From positions 1 to 64,000 of the forward strand of contig CANMTO010000002.1 of NCBI GenBank assembly GCA_947500755.1: 64,000 nt of DNA. The letters are read 5' to 3'. Below, piece after piece: positions 1 to 56,123 of this stretch; the first letter of the stretch is position 1, and each line of letters opens with the position of its first letter. The translations under genes were made by a program, and so were the position numbers. The DNA comes from Flavobacteriales bacterium. GTDB lineage: Bacteria > Bacteroidota > Bacteroidia > Flavobacteriales_D > Crocinitomicaceae. The notes under the pieces were generated by a model. The model made no database searches, was not told where the DNA came from, and saw nothing but the letters and a program-made list of their open reading frames with translations.

Positions 1-430
1 CGTTTCTGCGGGATTCACCGCTACATCGTTCGCCGTCCGTTCGTTGGTGACGGGATTTGTTGTATTCGTACCTGGCGCAGTAGTATTCGTTTCTGCGGGA
101 TTCACCGCTACATCGTTCGCCGTCCGTTCATTGGTGACGGGATTTGTTGTATTCGTGCCTGGCGCGGTAGGATTTGTTTCTGCGGGATTCACCGCTACAT
201 CGTTCGCCGTTCGTTCGTTGGTGACGGGATTTGTTGTATTCGTCGCCGGCGCGGTGCTATTTGTTTCCGCGGGATTCACCGCTACATCGTTTGCCGTTCG
301 TTCGTTGGTGACGGGATTTGTTGTATTCGTGCCTGGCGCTGCAGGATTTATTTCTGCGGGATTGGCAGTTACATCGTTGGTCGTCCGTTCGTTGGTGACA
401 GGATTTGTTGTATTCGTAGCCGTTGAGGCG
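1..430 (-). repeat. 87-bp tandem repeat array inside the PD40 protein gene
   Basis: Four full in-frame 87-bp units lie at 47-133, 134-220, 221-307 and 308-394, with a partial unit at 1-46 and a degenerate one from 395. Read on the minus strand each encodes 29 residues with the core TNPVTNERTANDVAVNPAET. Variation is greatest at the linker (PTAPG, STAPA, PAAPG). The array continues beyond the window, so its copy number is unknown. Confidence 0.95.
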
Positions 431-2931
431 TCATTGGTTTGTACAGGATTTGTAATGTCTTTATTGATCTGAGCACGCATTGCCGTATTGATAGAATCCA
501 AGGAAGCTTCGAGTTCTTGGAGTTTATTCGCTAAGGCTTCTTTTTCATTTGGCGAAGCCAAAAGCATTTGATTTTGAATAACCGTTGTTTCGGCCTGCAT
601 GACAGAACGTTGATGATCTAATGACGTGGTGTTTGAGAGTTGAGCGGAAACCACGCGCTGAAGGCTTGTTTGTTCCGTTTTACGAGCTGTTGCCCGATCA
701 AGAAGCTGGTCTACAAGCGAATCCGTTGGTTCATGTCCATTAATTTTCAACGCATTTACAATGTCATTTCTCGTGATTTCGTCCATTTTTGAAGCGATTA
801 CCAAACGGGTTGAGTTTAGCTTCTGCTCCTTAGAAACTTGATCCGTATTCAATGCCACCAATTCCTTTCGATTTGCAGTTTTTTTCTGTTGTTCAATCTG
901 AGCTATTTGTTGACTTAGTTGATTTTCAGTAGCCTCTAATTGTTTCAATTCCTCAAGCAGCGGCTCATTTGATGCTATAATCGGTACTGATGTATTCTCT
1001 AAATTTGCCGAATACGTGATAAATTGGTTAATGGAATTTGAGTTTCGCTGGAGCACTGCGATTAAGGAATCTTGATTTTCTTGAATAAGCGCCATGTGAA
1101 TTCGCTCACTCAATGAGGTAATGCTTGGCTCTACATTAAGGGTATTCCATGTGCTTAATCTCTCTTGATTTTCCCGCTCTGATAGAGACCAAGAGGCTAA
1201 TTCTAGCTCATATTTTTGAATAGAATCGTTTAGCTTCATCAATGCTGCAGCAAACCGTTGGTTGGCAACGGTATCGGTCGAAGACAATAATTTCTTGTAA
1301 ATATCAGCTTGTTTTTGATACGCCTCTAGACGAGCATTGGTTGAGTTAATCTGGTTTTTATTACGTTCTGCGGCATCACTTAAATCAAATCCCGTATTAG
1401 AAATTTCTAATAGTTTATCCATTAAATACTCGCTTTTTTCAAGGAGTGTATTGCCTTTAATCGATAAGGATTCTAGTTGCTGTAATACTGTATTTTCAGC
1501 ATTCATGGTATCCACCACGTCTACAGTAAGAGGCTTGGAATGCGCCTTGAGAGATAATTGAGCGATTGCATTGGCTTTGAATGCCTTCATCTCTTCAGAT
1601 TGAACTGCATTAAATTCATGGCTAAAATCCGCTGATTCAGTTCCCTGATTCATCGAATAGTTGATCGTTTGTTTAAAGACCACATTATCTTTTTGCTGGG
1701 GTATTTTCTGTTCATGCTGAAATACTTTATCTGTACCTTCGATGGTCGCATTAAACACATAGGTTCCTGCGCCGGGCAACATGAGTTTGTAGGATCCCAG
1801 CTCATCACTGGTAAAGGGTCCATAGGTAACACCATCCGCTTTGTCGGTCACACTAATTTGAATGCCTTTGTTTTTAGGATCCACAAGGTCAGAAAAATCA
1901 CCAACGATGGCCACTAACGGTTGTGCATTGATGGTATAACTCACCTGCATCGCCTCAATGGCGCCGGTTGCCGTATTTCTATTCGATGCAAACCATGCCG
2001 TAGTTGCTGTTGCATTCAGCGGAACGAAGAAATAATCATCCGCTGCCGAAGAGAAAGGGAAATCCATATTTTCAGGAGTCCCTACTTCATTTAATGCGGG
2101 GTCATAGGATACTCGGAATAAATCAAAACCACCCATGGAAGTGAATCCATTGGAAGAAAAATACAATTGTTTGGATGCCGCGTCAAAAAATGGATATTTC
2201 AGGTCTGAATCGGGCAAAACGAGCGGGATAGCGGTAGGTTTTGACCATACGTCTTGACTAATCCGTTGAATATAAAATAATTTTAATGATGTAGCCTCGT
2301 CCCCATAGCTGGCATAGAACTTAAAAGAATCGCCACGTTTGTAATAGCATGTAGGAATGTAATTTTTCTTTTTGTCTATTTTCGTTTGCAAACTTGGATC
2401 CGCATAAATTTTACCTCCAATTGCTTCCAGGTCATACTTTTGAATAAATGTTTCTTCGGACGCTAATTGAACCCCCAAGGTACTCAAGGACTTAGGATGT
2501 TCAAGCAAGGATTTACCGTTGTTACAAAAACTTATTTCACGATTTGCATGGAGATAATCGGCTGGATTACAAGAAAGGTAGGCTTTGAACGAGGAAATGG
2601 CCAAATCGAATCGATACCCCAGGTGATGAATTTTTCCCAGATAATAATGCGCTTCGCAGAATGAAATACTTCGGTTTGCCACAAATTCAAAATACTTCTT
2701 CGCATGTTGTTTATTCTCTGTATGAAACACGCAGACGGCATAATGAAAATTATAACTATCTGATTCTGGATCTCGTGCGAGTAATTGTTGAAAATCTACC
2801 TTTGCAGTAGTGTATTGAGCCAGTTTAAATGCTTCAAAAGCTCGCTTTTCGATTTGAATAACAGACTGTGCACTAAGCTGAATGCTTAGGCCTAGTAAAA
2901 CAATAAACCCTATGTTTTTTATGTTAAGCAC
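1..2931 (-). CDS. Exported TPR/PD40 protein with coiled coil and 29-residue repeats (partial, C-terminus outside window)
   Basis: The open frame runs leftward from a GTG at 2931 to the window edge, 977 codons without a stop. In order I see a signal peptide (about residues 1-22, ending SAQ), TPR-like helices (25-150), PD40/WD40-like strands (LYFSSNG near 253, WFASNR near 313), a carboxypeptidase-regulatory/CNA-B-like fold (about 357-395), a long Gln/Glu/Asn-rich coiled coil (about 430-800) and 29-residue tandem repeats rich in Thr, Asn and Pro from about 830 on. The TPR-PD40-regulatory-domain order matches the N-terminal half of PorE/OmpA-type envelope proteins of Bacteroidota, usually closed by an OmpA peptidoglycan-binding domain; that end is not visible. 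GTG was chosen because no ATG precedes the signal peptide. It starts 12 bases after plsY and probably shares its transcript. Envelope location is inferred. Confidence 0.8.
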   Translation of the reverse strand, partial: MLNIKNIGFIVLLGLSIQLSAQSVIQIEKRAFEAFKLAQYTTAKVDFQQLLARDPESDSYNFHYAVCVFHTENKQHAKKYFEFVANRSISFCEAHYYLGKIHHLGYRFDLAISSFKAYLSCNPADYLHANREISFCNNGKSLLEHPKSLSTLGVQLASEETFIQKYDLEAIGGKIYADPSLQTKIDKKKNYIPTCYYKRGDSFKFYASYGDEATSLKLFYIQRISQDVWSKPTAIPLVLPDSDLKYPFFDAASKQLYFSSNGFTSMGGFDLFRVSYDPALNEVGTPENMDFPFSSAADDYFFVPLNATATTAWFASNRNTATGAIEAMQVSYTINAQPLVAIVGDFSDLVDPKNKGIQISVTDKADGVTYGPFTSDELGSYKLMLPGAGTYVFNATIEGTDKVFQHEQKIPQQKDNVVFKQTINYSMNQGTESADFSHEFNAVQSEEMKAFKANAIAQLSLKAHSKPLTVDVVDTMNAENTVLQQLESLSIKGNTLLEKSEYLMDKLLEISNTGFDLSDAAERNKNQINSTNARLEAYQKQADIYKKLLSSTDTVANQRFAAALMKLNDSIQKYELELASWSLSERENQERLSTWNTLNVEPSITSLSERIHMALIQENQDSLIAVLQRNSNSINQFITYSANLENTSVPIIASNEPLLEELKQLEATENQLSQQIAQIEQQKKTANRKELVALNTDQVSKEQKLNSTRLVIASKMDEITRNDIVNALKINGHEPTDSLVDQLLDRATARKTEQTSLQRVVSAQLSNTTSLDHQRSVMQAETTVIQNQMLLASPNEKEALANKLQELEASLDSINTAMRAQINKDITNPVQTNDASTATNTTNPVTNERTTNDVTANPAEINPAAPGTNTTNPVTNERTANDVAVNPAETNSTAPATNTTNPVTNERTANDVAVNPAETNPTAPGTNTTNPVTNERTANDVAVNPAETNTTAPGTNTTNPVTNERTANDVAVNPAET

Positions 2932-2942
2932 GCTTTGTAAGA

Positions 2943-3554
2943 TTACATCTTTGATGCGTTAAAGTTCATTCGTTGTTCCTCCCCTGCTATGAGTCGTTTA
3001 ATGTTCTTGTGATGTGCAACAATTACAAGCAAGGAGATGATTGCGTTAAACCAAACAAAGGCAAGACTTTGTTGATTAAACAAAAAATAACTGATAAACG
3101 GCAATATGCATGCTGCACTGATGGAGGCTAATGAAACGTAACGAGAAACCATAAAGACCACCAAAAAAACTAGCATACAAATTAGGGCGGTTGATGGATT
3201 AAGTCCTAAAAAAACACCTAGGGCCGTAGCAACTCCTTTACCACCTCTAAATTGGGCAAAAACGGGAAACACATGACCGAGAATACAAATCCCTGCAGCC
3301 AGCATGACAAATACTACTGATTCTTCCTGCAACATGTACTTTGAAATAAACATGCACAAAACGCCCTTTGATATGTCCATAATGAGTACTAAAATCCCGG
3401 TGCGCTTGCCTAAAATTCGAAAGGAATTAGTTGCTCCTGCATTTTTGCTACCGAATTCTCTTACATCCTTTCCATGGAGCCACTTCCCAAGCCATACAGC
3501 AGAAGGGATAGACCCAAGAAAATAAGCGAACACGAACGCAAATACAATTGTCAT
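2943..3554 (-). CDS. plsY: Glycerol-3-phosphate acyltransferase PlsY
   Basis: PlsY is the membrane enzyme that transfers an acyl group from acyl-phosphate to glycerol-3-phosphate, the first step of phospholipid synthesis. The 203-residue length is normal. The family's conserved loops are present: GSIPSAVWLGK near the N-terminus, KNAGATNSFR (about 37-46) and the glycine-rich FRGGKGVATALG (about 100-112), between five or so hydrophobic segments. It begins directly after the stop of the 1549-residue exported protein and ends 12 bases before the PD40 protein, so all three are probably cotranscribed. The product is secure from motifs alone. Confidence 0.95.
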   Translation of the reverse strand: MTIVFAFVFAYFLGSIPSAVWLGKWLHGKDVREFGSKNAGATNSFRILGKRTGILVLIMDISKGVLCMFISKYMLQEESVVFVMLAAGICILGHVFPVFAQFRGGKGVATALGVFLGLNPSTALICMLVFLVVFMVSRYVSLASISAACILPFISYFLFNQQSLAFVWFNAIISLLVIVAHHKNIKRLIAGEEQRMNFNASKM

Positions 3555-6500
3555 TTATTTTGCTCTTAAAAACTCTTTTAATCGAACCATTGCCAATTGA
3601 AGTGAAGCGTCATCAGACCACTCAAATTCAAAACCTTTGGATTTACGTTTATCCGGTTTCATCTCAATTAGCATGTTTTTCAAATCAGTATCCTTTGAAT
3701 AGATAAGCAATTTACCATCTTTTTTGGGCATTGCATAATCAAACCAGAAATCTTTATCGGTTTGATCCTTAAAGGAAAACAGCAAACTTTGATAAGATTT
3801 ATCTGCCGCGGTTTGAGCAATGGCCATATTAAAATCAACTTCCTTTAGAATTGGTTTGCCTTCAATGGCAATTATTGCAACGCGATTTTTTGCTTTAACT
3901 TCATCCCCTTCTTGGTCTGTTTCTGTGGCTCCACTTGGTGGTCGAGTGACCCAACCACTTGAAAAACCGCTCTCATTATTCGTTGTTTTAAAGCGCACAA
4001 AATCAAACTTTAGCCCGGATAACACGATGGTTTGATCTAACCCAGCAGGCATTTTCCGAAGCTTATCTTCCTCGTAATCCTTTAGTAATTCATTCACCTT
4101 TTCTTCGCTGAGCATCGACCTCAAATACGACGAGAAATTAATTTTCTTAGAATTCAAATCAACATTTTTCTGTCCTTCAAGTGCTTTTAAGCCATCCCCT
4201 ATTTTACTAAACACCTCTTTTTGCATCGGAAATTTAAGGAGGGTTGAAACATCCATTCCGATTTTCTTGGTATCATTTTCAAAAGAAATTGAGCCAAAGG
4301 AAGTGGCGGAAACTTCTCCTAAATTCACGCCAAAACTAAGCGCTCCAAGACCGGTTAACGAACAGGTTTCTGTATACATCGTAAGTAGATTACCCACATC
4401 ACTCAAGCCGCTTAACCGTGGTTTCTCCCCAATTTGAAACGTTTGACTCATTGGACTGTATTGTACGTAACCTGATGCTGAAAACACCACGGGATCGTCA
4501 ATTCCTTGTGTTTTTGACAAAAAGGCAGGATATACGACCACGCTGTCCATTGATGCAGAATTCTTCCACAGAAAACCTACGGCCAACTTCCGACCAAGGT
4601 CATTTACCGGAGTATTGGATATCGGAATTTGAATGTTTTTGGCCACAATAGTATCCTTAAAATTCATCCAGGAGCGATCAAAACTTTGGCACCCATGATT
4701 CAGTTTAGTAGCGCCATCGCAAAAAATACCTCGACTGGCCGCAACAATTTTAACCGTACCATAAAAATCAAACTCTTTACTCAATTTAAAATTATCCTTT
4801 TGGGCAATAACACCTTCTGCCTGAGTGACAGAGTTAAGATATTTTATGCTTTTCATGTCTAGTATCGTCAAAACACTATCTCGATCGTAATACGGATATT
4901 TGGCAATACCCTCGTATTTCTTTCTAGAAGTAATATTCACATTCGCATTCGTGAACGTATGAAATTTAGTAATAAATGATGCCACGATTCGGGCATTAGT
5001 GAGGGGGTCCATCACCGCATTTTTTCTAACCGTAACTTTCATAGAATCGGGATATATTTTAGCATCTCCTACCCGCACGTATTCCACTTTATTGCAAAAC
5101 AAGGTTTGCAATTTTAGGTCGTAACTCGCCAATAAGGAACGAAATTGAAGGGTGTCTTGATCATCGTGCATTGAAAAGAAATTGGATTCCTCAAGATCCG
5201 CCCCTGCTTCGAAGGTTGTTTTTTGTGATTTCGTTTTTTCAAAATCCACGTTAGCCTTATCCATATACCAGAAAAACTTATCCATCGTACAATAATATTG
5301 ATTGGGAGGGAATTTGATTCTTTTTGTCCCGAAGGAATTAAATTCTCCTTTACGTGTTGCAAAGGAAACATTTGCTTTTATATCTTTTGTTTCCATGGCT
5401 ACGGGGGCTTGTTCCTGATTTACAAACCTATTTTTAAGGGCAAAGGAAGAAGTATCAGCCAAAATATCTTCGTGGGTAAATTCAAAATCTTTTGAACCGA
5501 GGTCCGCATCAGGAAAATGAAGTAATCCATTGCCGCGCATTCCTTTTGTAGATAGGATTACACTTCCTTCCATCTCGCATTGATTATTAAACATCTGCAG
5601 GTTTACGCCCCGCCATGCACTGGCCTTAAGCACCTGTTTCTTTGGAATAAATGTTATAAGTGCAGCATCGGAGGTAACGCTCGGCACCTTAATCCCCGTG
5701 GTGGATTCCTTATTAATGAATTGGGCAATGCCAATGGTAGAATCGGGTAGAAAGGTCAGTTTCTGTGAAATCGCAGTGGCCGTACTGTAATTAATTGTTC
5801 CTGCCCCTTGAAGGCCGTTGTGCGATAAAATAACCTTGTTCTCATAGGTTGAATAGTCGCCATAAAATGCCCACCCACCTTCAGGCGCTTTGGTAGAAAA
5901 ACCCAAGGAATAATCGGGCATAATTCTCAGAGGCTCTTTAATCGGAGGAAAAATTCCTCCCGATATCAATTCACCATTCAATCGTTGAGACGCTTCCGTG
6001 AAATTATCTAAACTATCTAGCTCAAACGGCAAAAGCCGAAAATAAAAGCGCGCCGAATCATAGGCGCCATTGACAATTGATTTATCATTATATACTACTT
6101 TGGTTGACCGGGGAACCAACAATTTGGGATAGCCCTTATTGGTTTTACTGATTCCAGATTTAGCACCAGGTTCATCAATTAAAATCTCACCTTGGAGTGC
6201 CGCAAATGAACTAATCATTTCAATCGGCTGATTTCCATCGCTTGGATTTAGTGGATTAACCACCAAGGCCGCATAGGCACTTTCTAGTAATGATATGTTA
6301 AATTTGGAATAAGAAAAATAAGCATCTTTTAAAAAGGCAACGAACTTACCAGCAGAAAGTTGACCCTTAAACTTAAAATCACGGTTTGGTTTTAGAATGC
6401 AGTAACTAGAGTCTGGTATAAATGAAACCTGTTGAGCCTGTGAAATTAACACGCCATCAACTCCGGTTAAAAAAATTTGATCCTTATCTAAGTCAATAAA

Positions 6501-8204
6501 CGCGTAAAAGTCTTGCTTCGCATACCTGGTATTTATGGTCCGTAAGTAGTCTGCATTCCGTGACTCATCCACGGCGCTGGGCAAAGGCCTCTCCTTTAAG
6601 TCGCAGGAAAAGGAGATGTTATCGAAATCCACTCCGTTCAATTTCGCATCTGCATAAGAGAATAATTTAGCAGAGGGGGTTATGGTTTTTTCGAACGAAT
6701 TGAACGTTAAAAATCCGCGCATGGATAAATCCAACAATTTACTTTTCGCATAGTCAATGCTGAGGCCTAAAGCACTTGCTGCTTGCCCTTCCGTCAGGAC
6801 GCTTAATCCATTTTTTCTTGAATAGCTTGCGATTTGAACCAGCGCATTCTGAGCACCTACTCCCCAAAGGCGAAAATCCTGCTCATTAAAATAGTTCAAT
6901 GACTCAAACTGAATGGATTTTTGTGCTTGCGAGGTAGCCATCTCAAAGGTGAATTTCGGGAAAGGGGTGCCCAATTCCCATTTTAGTACGGGCGCATTAT
7001 TTGATACCATAAAGTGATAATCAATGAAAGGGATAACCGCGGAGCCGAGTTTAAAGGCTGTATAAACTAGTTGGTTTTTCGAGGCTTCAAATTCAAACAA
7101 TCCGGCAGGATGGACCAGAGAGTCGCCTGTTGGATACAACAATTTTATAGAGGCTTCTCTAGATAAAATCCGAGAGGGATCTATGGCAAAATTCAGCGCA
7201 CTCACCAGTAAGGTGGGTTTATTTTTATATTTAAACAGAAGGCGGGCAGGATTTTCTTTTTTTCCCTCCCCCACTACGCGGCTACCCTCTAGGCTGAATC
7301 CCCCATCAAAATCCATGTTTTGAATTAAATCAGGAATAACTAGACGTTGACTGAATGAAGAAAAATGTGGCGCTCCTTGATGATCTTCCAACTGGTCCTT
7401 GGATTTATCTACAAGTGAACCCAATATTGGTGTTTTAAAATATGGCGTGGTAAGAAGTACGGTATCCGCTTTCAAAATCACGTCAAGCATAACTACACGG
7501 TAACCATTAAGCGTAGCATAGGTTTCATCTTTTTTAAGTCCACTCTTTTCCCAAGTAATCGTTCCATTTCTCCCAGTAAACTTTTTTGATTCATAATCAA
7601 AAACACCGCCGGTTTCGGCGACCCAAACGCTGTCTTCCCCTTTAGCAATGGGACTATACCCCAGCAATTGGCCGTCCGTACACACTATTTTTAATTTCTT
7701 TTCCGTGTTCCATGCCATATCCCCTTTAAAAATCCAGACGGCATTGTCATTTTTCTGAAGCGCTTTAAATCGAAAAAGGGCGTACGAAAATTCAAGAAAT
7801 GCGAGGTGTTCATCCGTGTCCTTGGTGCGATAATCTTTTTCTAAATCAATCCAAGTATTGATAAAGTCTGAAGACCATTTATTTTTTGATTGATATACAT
7901 GGGTAGCAACCATTAAATAAGTAAGCTGCACATCATTGCTCGTTTTATAAATAGCATTAGCAGATTCTACCATGCGATTAAAATTGCCTTCTGACAAGAG
8001 CGAAGTACTTTCAATCACGTTTGGAAATACCTGATTGATATTATATTGCATGGGCTCCTCAATGAACATTTTTTGAGATTCCTTAACGAATTTTTCGCGA
8101 TTCTTAGAGAATGGCTGAGCAAACACCACAAGATTAAGGGTTAATAACCCCATAAAAAGGCTAGCCTTTTTTAAGCAACATACACGCCCAATTTTCTTTT
8201 TCAT
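3555..8204 (-). CDS. Very large exported protein of unknown function
   Basis: About 1549 residues. I do not recognise a named domain. The ATG at 8204 gives a signal peptide beginning MKKKIGRV with a hydrophobic core ending VVFAQ; an ATG at 8213 and one at 8153 are alternatives, but the latter would lose the basic N-region. The N-terminal 150 residues look helical. The rest is a long succession of beta-rich segments with recurring patterns such as D.V.L....Y and GxG.L.F, as in large periplasmic or cell-surface proteins. The start overlaps the end of prmA by 44 bases and the stop touches plsY, so it sits inside a housekeeping operon. Location in the periplasm or outer membrane is inferred. Confidence 0.75.
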   Translation of the reverse strand: MKKKIGRVCCLKKASLFMGLLTLNLVVFAQPFSKNREKFVKESQKMFIEEPMQYNINQVFPNVIESTSLLSEGNFNRMVESANAIYKTSNDVQLTYLMVATHVYQSKNKWSSDFINTWIDLEKDYRTKDTDEHLAFLEFSYALFRFKALQKNDNAVWIFKGDMAWNTEKKLKIVCTDGQLLGYSPIAKGEDSVWVAETGGVFDYESKKFTGRNGTITWEKSGLKKDETYATLNGYRVVMLDVILKADTVLLTTPYFKTPILGSLVDKSKDQLEDHQGAPHFSSFSQRLVIPDLIQNMDFDGGFSLEGSRVVGEGKKENPARLLFKYKNKPTLLVSALNFAIDPSRILSREASIKLLYPTGDSLVHPAGLFEFEASKNQLVYTAFKLGSAVIPFIDYHFMVSNNAPVLKWELGTPFPKFTFEMATSQAQKSIQFESLNYFNEQDFRLWGVGAQNALVQIASYSRKNGLSVLTEGQAASALGLSIDYAKSKLLDLSMRGFLTFNSFEKTITPSAKLFSYADAKLNGVDFDNISFSCDLKERPLPSAVDESRNADYLRTINTRYAKQDFYAFIDLDKDQIFLTGVDGVLISQAQQVSFIPDSSYCILKPNRDFKFKGQLSAGKFVAFLKDAYFSYSKFNISLLESAYAALVVNPLNPSDGNQPIEMISSFAALQGEILIDEPGAKSGISKTNKGYPKLLVPRSTKVVYNDKSIVNGAYDSARFYFRLLPFELDSLDNFTEASQRLNGELISGGIFPPIKEPLRIMPDYSLGFSTKAPEGGWAFYGDYSTYENKVILSHNGLQGAGTINYSTATAISQKLTFLPDSTIGIAQFINKESTTGIKVPSVTSDAALITFIPKKQVLKASAWRGVNLQMFNNQCEMEGSVILSTKGMRGNGLLHFPDADLGSKDFEFTHEDILADTSSFALKNRFVNQEQAPVAMETKDIKANVSFATRKGEFNSFGTKRIKFPPNQYYCTMDKFFWYMDKANVDFEKTKSQKTTFEAGADLEESNFFSMHDDQDTLQFRSLLASYDLKLQTLFCNKVEYVRVGDAKIYPDSMKVTVRKNAVMDPLTNARIVASFITKFHTFTNANVNITSRKKYEGIAKYPYYDRDSVLTILDMKSIKYLNSVTQAEGVIAQKDNFKLSKEFDFYGTVKIVAASRGIFCDGATKLNHGCQSFDRSWMNFKDTIVAKNIQIPISNTPVNDLGRKLAVGFLWKNSASMDSVVVYPAFLSKTQGIDDPVVFSASGYVQYSPMSQTFQIGEKPRLSGLSDVGNLLTMYTETCSLTGLGALSFGVNLGEVSATSFGSISFENDTKKIGMDVSTLLKFPMQKEVFSKIGDGLKALEGQKNVDLNSKKINFSSYLRSMLSEEKVNELLKDYEEDKLRKMPAGLDQTIVLSGLKFDFVRFKTTNNESGFSSGWVTRPPSGATETDQEGDEVKAKNRVAIIAIEGKPILKEVDFNMAIAQTAADKSYQSLLFSFKDQTDKDFWFDYAMPKKDGKLLIYSKDTDLKNMLIEMKPDKRKSKGFEFEWSDDASLQLAMVRLKEFLRAK

Positions 8205-51220: not shown

Positions 51221-52933
51221 ATGAAAACACCCACCATACAGCGGAGCTATATAGCAAAAGACATCGTGTTAAAAACCTTTGAAGATGTAGAAGGCTATTT
51301 CAACGAACTCTTAACACGTGAACTAAATGAATTGAGCAGCTATAAAAAATGGCTTTGTGATGTCAGTGAATTGGAGGCGTTCTTGGAAGAAGACGGTGCG
51401 TGGAGATACATCAAAATGTCTATCGAAACCACCAACCCAACACTTACAGAATCCTATACGTATTTCGTTACTGAGATTCAACCGAAACTGGCTCCACTAT
51501 CCAATGATTTGAATAAAAAAATGATGGCGAGTGATTTTCAAAAGGAATTAAGTAAGGACTCCGCTTATGCCATTTATTTTCGTTCGGTTGGCGTACAACT
51601 CGATTTATTTCGCGAAGAAAACATTGCGATAGAAGCCTATTTGAGCGAAAAATCTCAAGAATATGGAAGCATAAGTGCTGCGCAAACCATTGAACACGAA
51701 GGCAAGAACTTAACCATGCAGCAGGCTTCCGTTCATTTGAAAAATCAAGATGAAGCCTTGAGGTCAGAGGTATACCATAAAATCGCATCGCGCAGGCGAC
51801 AAGACATTGATGCCTTGAATGCGTTATACACCGATTTAATTTTAAAACGGCATGAATTGGCAAAAAATGCAGGCTTTGACAACTACCGTGACTATATGTT
51901 TCAAAGCATGGGGCGTTTTGATTACACCAAAGAGGCCTGTTTTGATTTTCACGAAGCAGTGGCGCAGAAAGTGGTTCCATTGGTAAAAGAAATTCAACAG
52001 AATAAACTCAAAAAACTTGGTAAATCGAACTTTAAGCTTTGGGATTTAGAGGTTGATCCGGATGGGAAAGAACCCTTAAAGCCGTTCAACAGTGGTAATG
52101 AAATGCTTGAGAAAACGATTGAAATTTTCAATCAAATGGACGCTTATTTTGGCGACTGTTTACGTACGATGAAGGAAATGGGTCACTTGGATTTAGAATC
52201 TAAAGAAGGCAAAGCACCGGGAGGATACAACTATCCGTTGTACGAGATTGGAGTACCCTTTATATTCATGAATTCTGTAGGTTTACATAGAGACTTGGTG
52301 ACCATGGTACATGAGGGAGGCCATGCAATACACAGTTTTTTAAACCGTGAATTACCCTTAACTGCATTCAAGAACATTCCTTCGGAGGCTGCTGAATTAG
52401 CCTCGATGTCGATGGAATTACTGAGTATGAAGTATTGGGACGCCTTTTATCCAAATCCCGAAGAACTGCTTAGAGCACGTGAAGAACACCTGGAAGATAT
52501 TCTCAAGGTATTGCCTTGGATTGCCCAAATCGATGCGTTTCAGCATTGGGTATACACTAACCCAACGCATAGCGTAGAAGAACGCAGCGCGCAATGGCTA
52601 ACACTTAGTAAACGATTTGGCACTGGATTAACGGACTGGACAGGTTTTGAAGATTTACAAGCTCATTCTTGGCAGCGACAATTGCATTTGTATGAGGTGC
52701 CTTTTTATTACATTGAATACGGAATTGCTCAACTTGGTGCCATTGGCGTATGGAAAAACAGCTTACAAAACGAAGCTAAGGCAATTGAACAATACAAAGC
52801 GGGCTTGTCTTTGGGGTATACACAAAGTTTACCGAAAATTTACGATTCGGCAGGTGTTACCTTTGATTTGAGTCCCAAGCGCATTGGAGAGTTAATGGAA
52901 TTTGTAGATTCTTATGTAAAGGACTTGGCGTAA
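51221..52933 (+). CDS. M3 family oligoendopeptidase (PepF-like)
   Basis: 570 residues. The zinc site is VHEGGHAIHSF (HEXXH) around residue 365 with the downstream glutamate in IPSEAAELASMSME. The N-terminal helical domain and the C-terminal AGLSLGYTQSLPKIYD fit cytosolic M3 oligopeptidases, which degrade short peptides. The start follows a TAnnTTTG element by four bases. Its stop lies 13 bases before the promoter of the tRNA locus. Confidence 0.94.
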   Translation: MKTPTIQRSYIAKDIVLKTFEDVEGYFNELLTRELNELSSYKKWLCDVSELEAFLEEDGAWRYIKMSIETTNPTLTESYTYFVTEIQPKLAPLSNDLNKKMMASDFQKELSKDSAYAIYFRSVGVQLDLFREENIAIEAYLSEKSQEYGSISAAQTIEHEGKNLTMQQASVHLKNQDEALRSEVYHKIASRRRQDIDALNALYTDLILKRHELAKNAGFDNYRDYMFQSMGRFDYTKEACFDFHEAVAQKVVPLVKEIQQNKLKKLGKSNFKLWDLEVDPDGKEPLKPFNSGNEMLEKTIEIFNQMDAYFGDCLRTMKEMGHLDLESKEGKAPGGYNYPLYEIGVPFIFMNSVGLHRDLVTMVHEGGHAIHSFLNRELPLTAFKNIPSEAAELASMSMELLSMKYWDAFYPNPEELLRAREEHLEDILKVLPWIAQIDAFQHWVYTNPTHSVEERSAQWLTLSKRFGTGLTDWTGFEDLQAHSWQRQLHLYEVPFYYIEYGIAQLGAIGVWKNSLQNEAKAIEQYKAGLSLGYTQSLPKIYDSAGVTFDLSPKRIGELMEFVDSYVKDLA

Positions 52934-52954
52934 AAAGAAAAATGGCTATATTTG
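52925..52954 (+). promoter_or_regulatory. Promoter of the tRNA-Met locus
   Basis: TTG (52925-52927), 19 bases, TATATTTG (52947-52954), consensus in both halves. It overlaps the end of the peptidase gene. It lies 14 bases before the first tRNA-like 5' end and about 140 bases before the intact tRNA, so it seems to be the tRNA's original promoter. Confidence 0.65.
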
Positions 52955-52968
52955 CCCTCTCAAAAATA

Positions 52969-53096
52969 GCGAGATAGCTCACCCACCTGCGCTAAGCTTC
53001 GGTGGATTTGAGTTGGTTAGTTAAATATAATGGCGAGATAGCTCACCCACCTGCGCTAAGCTTCGGTGGATTTGAGTTGGTTAGTTAAATATAATG
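52969..53096 (+). repeat. Two tandem 64-bp repeats containing a split tRNA-Met 5' end
   Basis: Units 52969-53032 and 53033-53096 are identical. Each consists of the 13 bases GCGAGATAGCTCA (tRNA positions 2-14), a 30-base insert with the hairpin CCACC-13-GGTGG, then GTTGGTTAG (the continuation of the tRNA D arm) and the spacer TTAAATATAATG. The intact tRNA starts with the last base of the second unit. The insert breaks the tRNA sequence exactly in the D loop. Confidence 0.92.
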
Positions 53097-53169
53097 GCGA
53101 GATAGCTCAGTTGGTTAGAGCGTAGGATTCATAACCCTAAGGTCCCGAGTTCAACTCTCGGTCTCGCTA
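53096..53169 (+). tRNA. tRNA-Met (anticodon CAT)
   Basis: 74 bases with a 7-bp acceptor stem (first pair G-T), D stem GCTC/GAGC, anticodon loop TTCATAA, T stem CCGAG/CTCGG with TTCAACT loop and discriminator A; CCA is not encoded. The initiator features (unpaired 1-72, three G-C pairs in the anticodon stem) are missing, so elongator tRNA-Met is most likely; a lysidine-type tRNA-Ile(CAT) cannot be fully excluded. The anticodon stem has an A31-C39 mismatch. Confidence 0.9.
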
Positions 53170-53240
53170 CAAAAGCCCTGACGGTTTCGTTAGGGCTTTT
53201 TTTACTTTAATCAATTATTTCCCGAGCTCTGTCGAACTTT
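53163..53240 (+). repeat. Left 78-bp direct repeat: tRNA 3' end, terminator and flank
   Basis: From CTCGCTACA at the tRNA 3' end through the terminator to CCCGAGCTCTGTCGAACTTT. It recurs at 55495-55572 with few changes, except that the terminator hairpin is in inverted orientation there. Together the copies bracket an AT-rich 2.25-kb segment, like attachment sites. Confidence 0.85.
53171..53203 (+). terminator. Terminator after tRNA-Met
   Basis: AAAGCCCTGACG and CGTTAGGGCTTT form a 12-bp stem with one wobble pair around the loop GTTT, followed by a run of Ts. Placed directly after the tRNA. Confidence 0.88.
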
Positions 53241-53330
53241 TGCTTGTTCAAAAGTTATCAGAACACTGACAAACTTTTTTCGTCAGTGTTCAAATCTCTC
53301 TCTCGCTACAATAAGGAAGTCAACAATGGC
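53234..53330 (+). repeat. Hairpins and a second tRNA 3' remnant
   Basis: AACTTTTG/CAAAAGTT (53235-53242 with 53249-53256) and GAACACTGAC/GTCAGTGTTC (53261-53270 with 53282-53291) are perfect inverted repeats. GTTCAAATCTCTCTCTCGCT...A at 53288-53310 matches the tRNA T-loop-to-discriminator region with three differences. An AAGGA...TCCTTTTTTT terminator-like hairpin follows at 53312-53340. This looks like the degraded end of another tRNA-Met copy with its own terminator. Confidence 0.6.
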
Positions 53331-53349
53331 GTCCTTTTTTTGTAATGAG

Positions 53350-53396
53350 TGTCTAGTCCTGAAATAAATTGTGTCAACTTATTTCAGGACTAGACA
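53350..53396. repeat. 18-bp perfect inverted repeat, possible IS-end or MITE remnant
   Basis: TGTCTAGTCCTGAAATAA (53350-53367) and its exact complement (53379-53396) flank an 11-base loop. Terminal TGT...ACA and the sequence style suggest abutting ends of an insertion sequence, but no transposase is present. GTGTCTAG recurs singly at 53499 and 56316. Confidence 0.6.
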
Positions 53397-53725
53397 GTAA
53401 AATATAATAAAGGTAATAAAACACAAATAGCCTTTTTCTGAAACATTCTAAGTGCATCCTACTGCCCCATTCTATTCGCGAATTTGATAAATAATTCAGT
53501 GTCTAGCGAAATTCAAATTGTAGGACTTGCTAAAATTCTATAATAATCTAAGTGTTCCACTTTGAGTTTATTATAAATCTAATTTTCTCTATACCAGTTA
53601 ATTAATTGAAAAGTTATTAAATTTTCATTATTAATAAACCACAAAATCAATTTGATAGTAATTGCCCAACAGTATATCTCTATAATTAATTGACTTTTCA
53701 CGAACGAACTAAAAATCAGCTTTGC
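53397..53725. other. AT-rich non-coding stretch
   Basis: Between the inverted repeat and the LRR gene I see no credible ORF, promoter or RNA structure apart from one further GTGTCTAG at 53499-53506. Composition is more AT-rich than the surroundings, as in the LRR gene. Confidence 0.5.
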
Positions 53726-55300
53726 TTATTTAAAACATTCAATTTGGTTAAAATCAATTTTATTCAGTTGCTTTTCTAGATTGTTTATCATTAAATTGAC
53801 ATTTTTTATCTTTTCATCTTTTAATAAAACTTGATTTCTAACATTTTCATTATGTGCTTCAATTTCCTTTATTTGAAACAAATTATCCAAGTAAGCAGAT
53901 TGATTTTCATGAATTTTTATTTGTCCTTTTTTAATTAGGTTATTTAGTTGTTTTAACTCTTTAGCTGAAAAACTATAGTTTTTGGTAATTAAAGTTTTAT
54001 CATCATTTAATTCAATCAGTCCATTTGTTGAAATTAAAAAAATACGGCCTTGAACATTTAATGATGAAATAAAATCCTGCACATCCGCTGATTGGAAAGT
54101 GCTATTATCCATCAATTGGAGAGTATCAAGCATAGATCTTATTTTATTTGATTCTGGATTTAGCGTAATAAATTCAGCTATAACTGTACTTTTTATTGAT
54201 TTCAGTTCTTCTTTGAGATCATAAATCTTATCTTTAATTTCATTCCTGTAATTGAATAATTCTTCCAGCTGTTTATTAACGATATCTGATTCAGATGAAT
54301 TATAATTATAGAAAGATAATTCCTCAACCTCAGATTTATCATCCATTAGATTTGCAACAATAAGTTTATAGATATAAAATGGATTCTCCCATTCTTCCTC
54401 GGAATAATCCTCACAACGTAACTCTAGAGTGATATTATGAACCTTATTCAATTTTTGGAAATTCGACAATTTAACATTAAACAATTTTGCGTCTAAAAGG
54501 AAATTCTCGAGATTCGGCATTTCACCAATGCAATCAAAAAAATATTCCGCTGTATACCTATTGCTTTCATTTTCGGGAGAGTCATATTCTACTTTATAAT
54601 CTTTTACTCTATAAATCTTATGACCAAAGTTTATATCGTATAGTTTTGATCCTCTAATAATCAATCTTTCAATGTTTGATTTTGTTAAAGCCGAGCAAAA
54701 TTCGTTATTAATTGATATTCCTCTAATATCCAAGGATTTAAGATTAGGAAGGGTAATTAAACTAGGTGGAAAAGAAGCGAAACCCAAAGCTGTTTCAAAG
54801 GATCTAAGTTTGGTGAGATTTGCTATTCTATCATCCAAAACATACGGTAATTTTCGATGGTTCCAAACGTCTCCACCACTATCAAGTAGTAAAGTTTCTA
54901 AATTTGATAAAGAATAAATAAATTCAATTTCATTTTCATTGTATAAATATCCTACATCTAAATTAACCAGGGTTTTTAAATTACTTAGTGGCTTTAAATC
55001 TAATTCTTCTCCCAACCAATAGAAACTCAATGTTTCCAACGGTAATAGGCTTATCTTGTCAATAAAATCTTGATTAATTTCTAAATCTGGAAAATTATTA
55101 TTTATGCCATAATCACCAGAATTAATTACACTTAAAGATTTAAGGTTTATAAATTTTTCTATGTTATCTATTATTTCTTGATTAATTACCCGAGCTTCGA
55201 TATTAAGTTCTGTTACTTGAGCAGGGTTTGATAACAAATCATCTTGACCAAAGCATAAATGAATACTTAAAAGAAATAAGATTGTACTGAATTTTTTCAT
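53726..55300 (-). CDS. Exported leucine-rich-repeat protein with C-terminal coiled coil
   Basis: 524 residues from the ATG at 55300; a TTG at 55315 is not needed. Signal peptide MKKFSTILFLLSIHLCFG. From about 60 to 240 there are LRR-like units: LKSLSVINSG, LETLSFYWLG, LVNLDVGYLY, LETLLLDSGG, LKSLDIRGIS, IERLIIRGS. The C-terminal third is charged and helical, with coiled-coil-like heptads (NEIKDKIYDLKEELKSIKS and the last 40 residues). Codon use is markedly more AT-rich than in neighbouring genes, and it is the only gene between the 78-bp repeats, so it is probably imported cargo. A partner-binding role is inferred only. Confidence 0.8.
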   Translation of the reverse strand: MKKFSTILFLLSIHLCFGQDDLLSNPAQVTELNIEARVINQEIIDNIEKFINLKSLSVINSGDYGINNNFPDLEINQDFIDKISLLPLETLSFYWLGEELDLKPLSNLKTLVNLDVGYLYNENEIEFIYSLSNLETLLLDSGGDVWNHRKLPYVLDDRIANLTKLRSFETALGFASFPPSLITLPNLKSLDIRGISINNEFCSALTKSNIERLIIRGSKLYDINFGHKIYRVKDYKVEYDSPENESNRYTAEYFFDCIGEMPNLENFLLDAKLFNVKLSNFQKLNKVHNITLELRCEDYSEEEWENPFYIYKLIVANLMDDKSEVEELSFYNYNSSESDIVNKQLEELFNYRNEIKDKIYDLKEELKSIKSTVIAEFITLNPESNKIRSMLDTLQLMDNSTFQSADVQDFISSLNVQGRIFLISTNGLIELNDDKTLITKNYSFSAKELKQLNNLIKKGQIKIHENQSAYLDNLFQIKEIEAHNENVRNQVLLKDEKIKNVNLMINNLEKQLNKIDFNQIECFK

Positions 55301-55316
55301 GAATAAAATTTTCAAT

Positions 55317-55324
55317 CAAAATTA
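55317..55324 (-). promoter_or_regulatory. Promoter -7 element of the LRR gene
   Basis: Minus-strand TAATTTTG, perfect TAnnTTTG, 16 bases before the ATG at 55300. This supports the later start. The rest of 55325-55494 shows nothing I can identify. Confidence 0.5.
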
Positions 55325-55494
55325 AAAAAAATGTGTCAGGTATTGATTAATTGAGAAATTCTTGTGTTCTAGATTCAAAATTTGAAAAATACTGTTGACG
55401 AATTAAAAAACATCAAAAATTCATCATATCGAGATGAATTAACACTCAATTGAAGGTAAACATTATGTATGTGCCGGATTCATCAATGATCAAG

Positions 55495-55572
55495 CTCGCT
55501 ACAAAAGCCCCGACGAAACCGTCAGGGCTTTTTTTACTTTCATCAATTATTTCCCGAGCTCTGTCGAACTTT
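55495..55572 (+). repeat. Right 78-bp direct repeat (tRNA 3' end plus inverted terminator)
   Basis: Begins CTCGCTACAAAAGCCC as at the tRNA and ends GTCGAACTTT. The internal hairpin reads GCCCCGACGAAACCGTCAGGGC, close to the reverse complement of the left copy's hairpin; bases on both sides are in direct orientation. It can still work as a terminator (stem plus seven Ts). Confidence 0.85.
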
Positions 55573-55637
55573 GGATAACTGATTCAATTTCTATCACGTA
55601 TTTAGGCCGAAAAAAAACAATTCACTATCTTTATCTA

Positions 55638-56123
55638 ATGAAATATTTCCTATTCCTACTGACCTTTACGTTTTTAGTATACAGTTGCAATTCAGAAGAC
55701 AATACTAAAATCCCCTCTCCGCCTGCACCCCCTGAGGTAAAAAAACCTGTTGAGGTTAAGAATAAATTCAATAAATCGGACGACAAACCAATCACCGTAA
55801 GCGGTAAATTTTACATTACTCACGAAGTTGATTCAGAAAATGAAATGCCTCAATCTCTTATTTATGTGATTTGTCAGGCAGAAACTACCTTGGTCGCAAA
55901 AGTTGTGGGCGATGCATCGCTTGTTGAAAAAAGTCAATTTTCTAATATGGACATCCCTTCAAATGCAATCACTGCTTGTGCAAGCTGGTATGCGGGGGCA
56001 GGTGATTACTTTTATTTGATTCCCGATAAACGTAAGATGTTAAAAGTTTTTCAAGGCTGGCAAGATGAAGGACAAGAAACTCCGGGATACCATTGGAAGA
56101 AAGTGAAAGAAATTCATTTCTAG
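55638..56123 (+). CDS. Lipoprotein of unknown function
   Basis: 161 residues. MKYFLFLLTFTFLVYSC is a lipoprotein signal with the acceptor cysteine at residue 17. A proline- and lysine-rich linker (IPSPPAPPEVKKPVEVK) follows, then a small beta-rich domain with GKFYITHEVD, VICQAETTLVAKVVG and a C-terminal WKKVKEIHF. No family recognised. TATCTTTA, one base off consensus, ends four bases before the ATG. Confidence 0.7.
   Translation: MKYFLFLLTFTFLVYSCNSEDNTKIPSPPAPPEVKKPVEVKNKFNKSDDKPITVSGKFYITHEVDSENEMPQSLIYVICQAETTLVAKVVGDASLVEKSQFSNMDIPSNAITACASWYAGAGDYFYLIPDKRKMLKVFQGWQDEGQETPGYHWKKVKEIHF

Follow-up and report, generated by a model that had tools for sequence, protein, structure and literature searches.

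Hairpin-interrupted tRNA-Met copies in a Flavobacteriales genome as probable remains of a GIY-YIG endonuclease element that targets tRNA genes

In the 64,000-nt stretch of DNA analysed here (the window), an intact tRNA-Met gene is preceded by two tandem 64-bp units, each of which repeats the 5' part of the tRNA with a hairpin in its D loop. These units are probably the left-end remains of a mobile element that carried a stand-alone GIY-YIG endonuclease of about 80–110 residues and had one tRNA as its target. On the best reading of our analyses, the locus would be the relic of a homing element working like SegB of phages, without being a relative of SegB in sequence. Genomes, loci and host families are referred to below by our G, L and f numbers.

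Results

The tRNA-Met array in the window

The features of the locus, all on the forward strand, are as follows.

52925–52954, plus strand: promoter-like sequence 5' of the array, TTGGCG and then TATATTTG at 52947–52954 (sequence; consensus scan)
52968–53031, plus strand: unit 1, tRNA-Met 5' part with D-loop hairpin (52982–53011) and AT-rich spacer (53021–53031) (sequence; Tandem Repeats Finder; G007, G025 and G004)
53032–53095, plus strand: unit 2, with G as first base, hairpin stretch 53046–53075 and spacer 53085–53095 (sequence; Tandem Repeats Finder)
53096–53170, plus strand: intact tRNA-Met(CAT) with a G1–U72 pair (ARAGORN; Rfam RF00005, 68.1 bits)
53163–53240, plus strand: tRNA 3' end, terminator and start of the 3' relic, repeated at 55495–55572 with 91% identity
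53171–53200, plus strand: intrinsic-terminator-like hairpin of 13 pairs with a T tail (terminator scan)
53220–53311, plus strand: broken tRNA-Met 3' part, comprising TCCCGAG, two T-loop hairpins (53235–53256 and 53261–53291) and then TTCAAATCTCTCTCTCGCTACAA (alignment; tblastn)
55495–55572, plus strand: second copy of tRNA 3' end, terminator and hairpin start, on the far side of about 2.2 kb (repeat comparison)

The sequence confirmed the two units of the preliminary description, each a tRNA 5' part with a D-loop hairpin ahead of the intact gene. They are identical save for A or G at the first base, and each runs from GCGAGATAGCTCA (tRNA 5' end to D loop) through a 30-base insert containing the stem CCACC/GGTGG and through GTTGGTTAG into an 11-base AT-rich spacer; Tandem Repeats Finder reported the array at 52965–53109, with a period of 64 and 98% matches. 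Unit 1 lies roughly where the tRNA starts in relatives with a plain gene, a dozen bases past the TATATTTG box; TAnnTTTG is what we take to be the Bacteroidota −7 box. The promoter proposed earlier is present as a motif, but TTGGCG-N16-TATATT at 52925–52952 was the one promoter-consensus match in the region against a mean of 2.9 in shuffled sequences, which is below chance. Terminator-like sites numbered 3 against 0.7 in shuffles. An Rfam search of positions 52800–55700 (E ≤ 0.1) returned the tRNA and one match far below cut-off, and no intron RNA family at the insertion. The two units are the sole sites of the exact CCNCCTNCGC-type hairpin in this genome. A separate tandem array, with an 87-bp unit, 4.8 copies and 89% matches, lies at the window edge (2–418).

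The preliminary description had further taken A as the ancestral first base of the tRNA and G1 as a base supplied by the repeat, and it had named G1 in relatives as the observation that counts against this. All 26 CAT-anticodon tRNAs in loci L008–L032 begin with G; 25 of them are tRNA-Met of the window's type (24 with GGCGAGA, 1 with GGCGAGG), and one is another CAT tRNA. G is also the first base of the first broken copy in G007, G025 and G004. An ancestral A1 is thus ruled out, the native base being G1 (25 of 25 tRNA-Met of the same type), and since all 25 genes begin with G, the A at 52968 is most simply explained as a later change in the broken copy.

The same locus in related genomes

The locus was searched for in 60 relatives, in which orthologous loci sit behind the same peptidase gene, presumably of the M3 type. 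The comparison with related genomes recommended earlier recovered the same insert at the same site in G007, G025 and G004, and this identity of insert and site in sister genomes means that the array is not a product of chance. G025 and G004 have one unit each, G007 has one with three consecutive hairpins, and a different hairpin type occurs in three units in G015 and in one in G002; many other relatives have a plain tRNA-Met without units. The order of events put forward before, an insertion at GCTCA/GTTGG followed by a new tRNA 5' end and then by duplication, is borne out by the sisters with one unit (G025 and G004) and by G015 with three. In G002, G005, G015, G129 and G217, tRNA-Met copies upstream of the gene also have a D-loop hairpin, though not the same one.

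In a tree of 20 peptidases (G217 gave no usable match), the first hairpin type formed one clade (100/99) and the second fell within a clade of five (100/100), of which one member, G036, has no array. The simplest reading would be that, in this genus, the array was gained twice at the one tRNA-Met gene and was lost once, in G036, on a tree whose change counts do not separate gain from loss. A pattern search for an additional tRNA-Met 5' copy ahead of the gene (gap of 28–58 bases) was positive in 8 of 399 genomes in the order, each of them a member of this genus. The same pattern matched 12 stretches of the GTDB collection; ten have a D-loop hairpin, including records titled Bacteroidetes, Bacteroidota and Bacteroidales, and in L095 and L096 the upstream 5' copy has none. 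L095 (positions 1–8000), with its hairpin-free partial tRNA-Met copy, is a metagenome-assembled genome titled Erysipelotrichaceae. The idea that the array is peculiar to the window's genome is ruled out by the relatives and the matches across the phylum.

The full set is present at the orthologous tRNA-Met of G004, in the order broken 5' part, intact tRNA, terminator, GIY-YIG gene and broken 3' part; in both G004 and G009, tRNA-Met is followed by a terminator, a small GIY-YIG gene and then a tRNA-Met 3' part with T-loop hairpins. The 3' relic of the window aligned with that of G004 at a score of 106 (best of 200 shuffles, 44) and with G025 at 96 (best shuffle, 37), and it encodes PSSVELLLVQKLSE, 14 C-terminal residues that are 79% identical to the end of the G004 GIY-YIG protein (tblastn, residues 85–98, E 0.003). 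The profile recovered no member of the nuclease family from the window's genome, which is 98.87% complete and in which its best match was a partial one of 17.4 bits in a 459-residue protein. Judged from these comparisons, the window locus is most likely a remnant that has lost its nuclease gene. Of the earlier proposal that an element rebuilt the tRNA 5' end, the 5' side is real, but the 3' side is involved too (53220–53311), and a GIY-YIG element is the most likely agent.

A GIY-YIG family linked to tRNA genes

We collected 60 GIY-YIG ORFs from 37 genomes, namely the small ones and two longer ones; 28 had a tRNA on their own strand in the DNA examined around them, in most cases no more than 330 nt away. 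Three proteins from other genomes matched Pfam PF01541 with 50.8, 54.1 and 44.3 bits (cut-off 22.6), which places them in the GIY-YIG superfamily; the same three had no match in NCBIfam and, in PHROGs, one weak match to a homing endonuclease. Ten residues were invariant in 18 proteins; the tyrosines, the arginine and the glutamate in this set presumably occupy the places of the known GIY-YIG active site. In a tree of 51 proteins, chosen by hand from the 60 ORFs with the addition of G025 and L096 and leaving out tandem, truncated and relic-only-adjacent copies (e.g. L136, L159, L161 and L162), all 24 tRNA-linked proteins fell in one clade of 30 (SH-aLRT 99).

A profile of 18 tRNA-linked proteins was matched at E ≤ 1e-14 by 106 of the 150 genomes searched in the family; for the phylum, the figure was 110 of 198. 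A same-strand tRNA lay within 330 nt in 50 of the 60 best-scoring loci, which are best matches and not a random sample; an opposite-strand tRNA lay there in none, and shifting the gene by 1100 nt gave 3 of 104. The tRNA was upstream of the nuclease in 44 of these loci and downstream in 9, with both in some. Six of the ten loci that had no tRNA within 330 nt have a contig end within that distance, and L167, another of the ten, adjoins tRNA-Met relics (same region as L114). Searches by tblastn at E 1e-5 returned no match for two family proteins in 50,697 phage records and none for one family protein in 72,556 plasmid records, leaving a phage or plasmid vector unsupported. In L011, L013, L111 and L141 the nuclease frame continues into the broken tRNA copy and its hairpin, and the C-terminal tail is therefore derived from tRNA sequence.

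Element layouts and hairpins

Two layouts were distinguished. In the 3' type, the intact tRNA is followed, usually after a terminator, by the ORF and a broken 3' part. In the 5' type, a broken 5' part with a D-loop hairpin precedes the ORF and the intact tRNA; this type was found at tRNA-Arg and tRNA-Ser (L110, L153, L173, L205, L206, L209 and L220) and looks like the window unit with a nuclease gene inside. Because none of the nuclease-bearing 5'-type elements in the loci examined is at tRNA-Met, the 5' units of the window could be a by-product of a 3'-type element rather than a separate insertion. A 5' tRNA copy also lay upstream of the intact tRNA in 16 of 58 3'-type elements, against 0 of 58 in a reversed control, a comparison whose control tRNAs number only 5, and in L177, L192, L199, L215 and L221 both copies had, by eye, the same kind of hairpin. 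Tandem units occurred twofold in L153 and L097, threefold in L205, L220 and G015, and fourfold at tRNA-Arg of G004.

Of 71 elements, 45 had a palindrome of at least six pairs between colinear tRNA sequence on both sides (3' type, 37 of 60; 5' type, 8 of 11; one unit kept per locus and type), as against 0 of 71 when the region was shifted by 400 nt; by the same six-pair criterion, 26 elements had none. Dropping palindromes that resemble an arm of the tRNA itself, namely those of L183 and of L178, whose chimaeric ARAGORN tRNA contains the hairpin, left 43 (37 + 6), of which 42 are firm because L181 rests on a chimaeric tRNA call. The palindromes often stand in place of a whole arm, at a position typical of the tRNA and common to different host families:

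tRNA-Ala, palindrome at 24/46–47: host families f22 and f40
tRNA-Asp, palindrome at 35–36/53–54: host families f1 and f2
tRNA-Asp, palindrome at 48–49/61–62: host families f22, f24 and f44
tRNA-Val, palindrome at 24–28/46–50: host families f1 and f36

Further positions exist, for example at tRNA-Asn. Some hairpins are dispersed genome repeats: across eight genomes, the number of forward sites of TCCGCCNCGGCGGA, with at most one mismatch, ranged from only 2 in G005 to 35 in G015, where the reversed pattern gave 0 forward sites and 1 reverse site. A constant tie of the CCNCCTNCGC..GCTNCGGNGG palindrome to nuclease or tRNA was rejected, since 18 of its 21 sites outside the window were in loci without a tRNA.

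Target-following and a displaced tRNA allele

For a second tree, 66 of 147 domain hits were used, leaving out those with no tRNA or one more than 330 nt away, those below 70 residues, identical proteins and duplicate loci (L062, L185 and L120); L178 and L181 were relabelled as Arg(tct) of the 3' type because the ARAGORN calls there are chimaeric tRNAs. The tRNA label required 26 changes, as compared with a possible minimum of 10 and a shuffled mean of 46.8, and none of 500 shuffles confined to host families was as low (minimum 39). The host-family label clustered weakly, with 33 changes against a shuffled mean of 37 and a minimum of 34. Nine of 11 sister pairs from different families shared the tRNA amino acid, against 12% expected by chance, some of these forks being unsupported. 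The nuclease relationships thus follow the tRNA species better than the host family, at the modest resolution of trees that rest on 80–95 columns (80 for the 66 proteins) and have many open forks.

One clear pair of an empty and an occupied site was found, at tRNA-Arg. In G261, the empty site, tRNA-Pro is followed by tRNA-Arg(tct) (GGTCCCGT...ACGGGATCAC) and its flank. In G004, the occupied site, four 5' units lie between tRNA-Pro and a tRNA-Arg that differs from that of G261 (GGTCCGCT...AGCGGATCACCA). Next come a terminator, the nuclease gene and a hairpin, and past these the 3' half of a G261-type tRNA-Arg and the same flank (94% over 270 bp). By this alignment, the resident tRNA-Arg was displaced in G004 and another installed. 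The upstream 5' units of G004 resemble the installed tRNA-Arg rather than the resident, and cannot simply be the 5' half of the resident pushed aside. At tRNA-Met, the difference between G036 and G015 may represent a loss rather than an empty site. The proposal that an element invariably installs a tRNA unlike the one it displaces, which would confer self-immunity, was rejected: in 29 of 60 3'-type loci, the final 15 nt of the intact tRNA are found again, without any change, past the ORF, and a resistant allele is therefore not the general answer. Within one genus (L226–L255 and L107), tRNA-Arg(tct) was seen with at least six acceptor stems and several T stems, a set that may span several loci.

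Discussion

Proposed mechanism and its alternatives

From the observed layout of the elements, the family-wide link to tRNA genes, the hairpins in broken copies, the target-following and the one allele pair, we infer a mechanism of cleavage and homing by the family nucleases. A complete locus would comprise a hairpin-broken tRNA 5' part, an intact tRNA, a terminator, the nuclease gene and a hairpin-broken tRNA 3' part. The nuclease would cut an element-free copy of its target tRNA gene, and repair from an element-bearing copy would split or displace the resident tRNA and install the element, while the whole or half tRNA arriving with it would keep translation going. Because the element ends are direct repeats of tRNA sequence, units could be amplified in tandem or lost by precise deletion through the repeated tRNA pieces. 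In the window's genome, the nuclease gene would have been lost and one unit doubled, with the displaced 3' part kept downstream. Self-immunity of the element's own tRNA and a reason for the hairpins would be further parts of this mechanism. More broadly, and with a confidence somewhat short of even, we suggest that these may be minimal selfish elements found across the phylum, which would home into chromosomal tRNA genes, each nuclease lineage with one tRNA of its own, split the resident gene at a set arm, carry a replacement tRNA as cargo and have hairpin-bearing, arm-swapped tRNA halves as their ends.

A simpler history, in which replication slippage duplicated the tRNA 5' end and palindromic repeats landed there by chance later, with no part for a nuclease, would accommodate the hairpin-free upstream copies of L095 and L096, the nested palindromes seen by eye outside the tRNA and the fact that hairpins of this kind are dispersed palindromes (TCCGCCNCGGCGGA, 2–35 forward sites in the eight genomes). 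It leaves unexplained the homology of the window's 3' relic to the tail of the G004 nuclease gene, the recurrence of the same hairpin position for a given tRNA across host families (Asp in f1 and f2, Ala in f22 and f40) and the frequency of nuclease genes beside tRNAs, far above control, and we regard it as improbable. A decayed integrase-type element, phage or integrative, with a tRNA as attachment site is very improbable. A partial and a whole tRNA copy are the usual trace of such integration in the systems described in the accessible part of PMC9897764, but the nuclease-bearing repeat units measure about 0.3–0.4 kb with the nuclease as their sole gene in the loci examined, the broken copies, with their internal hairpins, can be on one side or on both, and the plasmid and phage searches at E 1e-5 gave no tblastn matches. 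Between partial and whole tRNA copies, the loci examined contained a GIY-YIG ORF or spacer only, and no integrase. Slighter still is the chance that the two tandem copies are an assembly artefact: they do differ at a single base, yet arrays recur in other assemblies (threefold in G015, twofold in L097, fourfold at tRNA-Arg of G004), and G025 and G004 have single units.

The reading of the hairpins as selected insulators, which would guard against misfolding with the real tRNA or against toxic tRNAs, is compatible with homing; we consider it unlikely, if less so than slippage. In 10 of 11 loci, deleting the hairpins lowered the predicted pairing of the real tRNA's acceptor stem, in some by only 0.01–0.03, and a hairpin often replaces the whole arm. 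Against this, shuffled hairpins gave mixed results (L089 and L092 fold better shuffled) in loci that are partly related, G005 went in the opposite direction, and equilibrium folding omits co-transcriptional folding and RNase P. For the decoy 5' halves predicted earlier in the precursor, folding gave results that were weak and mixed.

Relation to known systems

In the accessible part of PMC13096335, SegB of T-even phages is described as a homing endonuclease of the GIY-YIG type, encoded by a free-standing gene, that cuts inside tRNA genes at the motif RAWTSGAAC, which we read as T-loop sequence, and that drives tandem amplification of a unit of tRNA and segB. The elements discussed here are alike in having a stand-alone GIY-YIG gene by tRNA genes (in the T4 record, segB lies between them). 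In contrast, SegB has 221 residues and is phage-borne, and that part of PMC13096335 describes neither hairpin-bearing tRNA halves nor chromosomal tRNA replacement. Our family profile scored 2.6 bits against SegB, with 9.0 for the best of 200 shuffled SegB sequences, and the family thus stands outside the SegB subfamily. The tRNA-integrating elements of PMC9897764, as far as its accessible part goes, also leave one whole and one partial tRNA copy, but have about 9–23 kb of cargo, lack a GIY-YIG gene beside the tRNA and have a partial copy free of hairpins.

A search of open-access titles and abstracts, with subscription journals mostly outside its reach, gave no account of hairpin-bearing tRNA halves, nor of GIY-YIG elements that occupy tRNA genes on Bacteroidota chromosomes. 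REP/RAYT-type repeats are likewise dispersed palindromes, sometimes with a nuclease gene nearby, but the enzyme there is a tyrosine HUH nuclease and the palindromes are not known to be tied to tRNA arms. Ssn proteins are small single-domain GIY-YIG single-strand nucleases acting near repeated sequences, and we know of no link of that family to tRNA genes. With an empty and an occupied allele of one site and with nuclease relationships that follow the target, we would file the present elements with the free-standing homing endonuclease elements.

Genes for tRNAs are usually taken as stable, vertically inherited and passive attachment sites, and here a common family seems to rewrite them, the replacement sometimes being a different tRNA allele. 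The elements could offer a testable system for homing in bacterial chromosomes beyond introns, inteins and phages, and they call for caution in tRNA annotation and in tRNA-based phylogeny. If the broader, phylum-wide reading is true, turnover of elements would explain the strong divergence of tRNA-Arg(tct) stems among species of the genus.

The region downstream of the 3' relic

Between the two copies of the tRNA 3' end lies a 2.2-kb stretch (53311–55495) with a gene on the minus strand whose protein we read as leucine-rich-repeat-like. The stretch looks inserted or amplified, because in G007 the next gene directly adjoins the terminator. Just past the 3' relic, at 53347–53397, there is a near-perfect inverted repeat with TGTCTAGTCCTGAAATAA arms, for which Rfam gave a mir-653 match far below cut-off.
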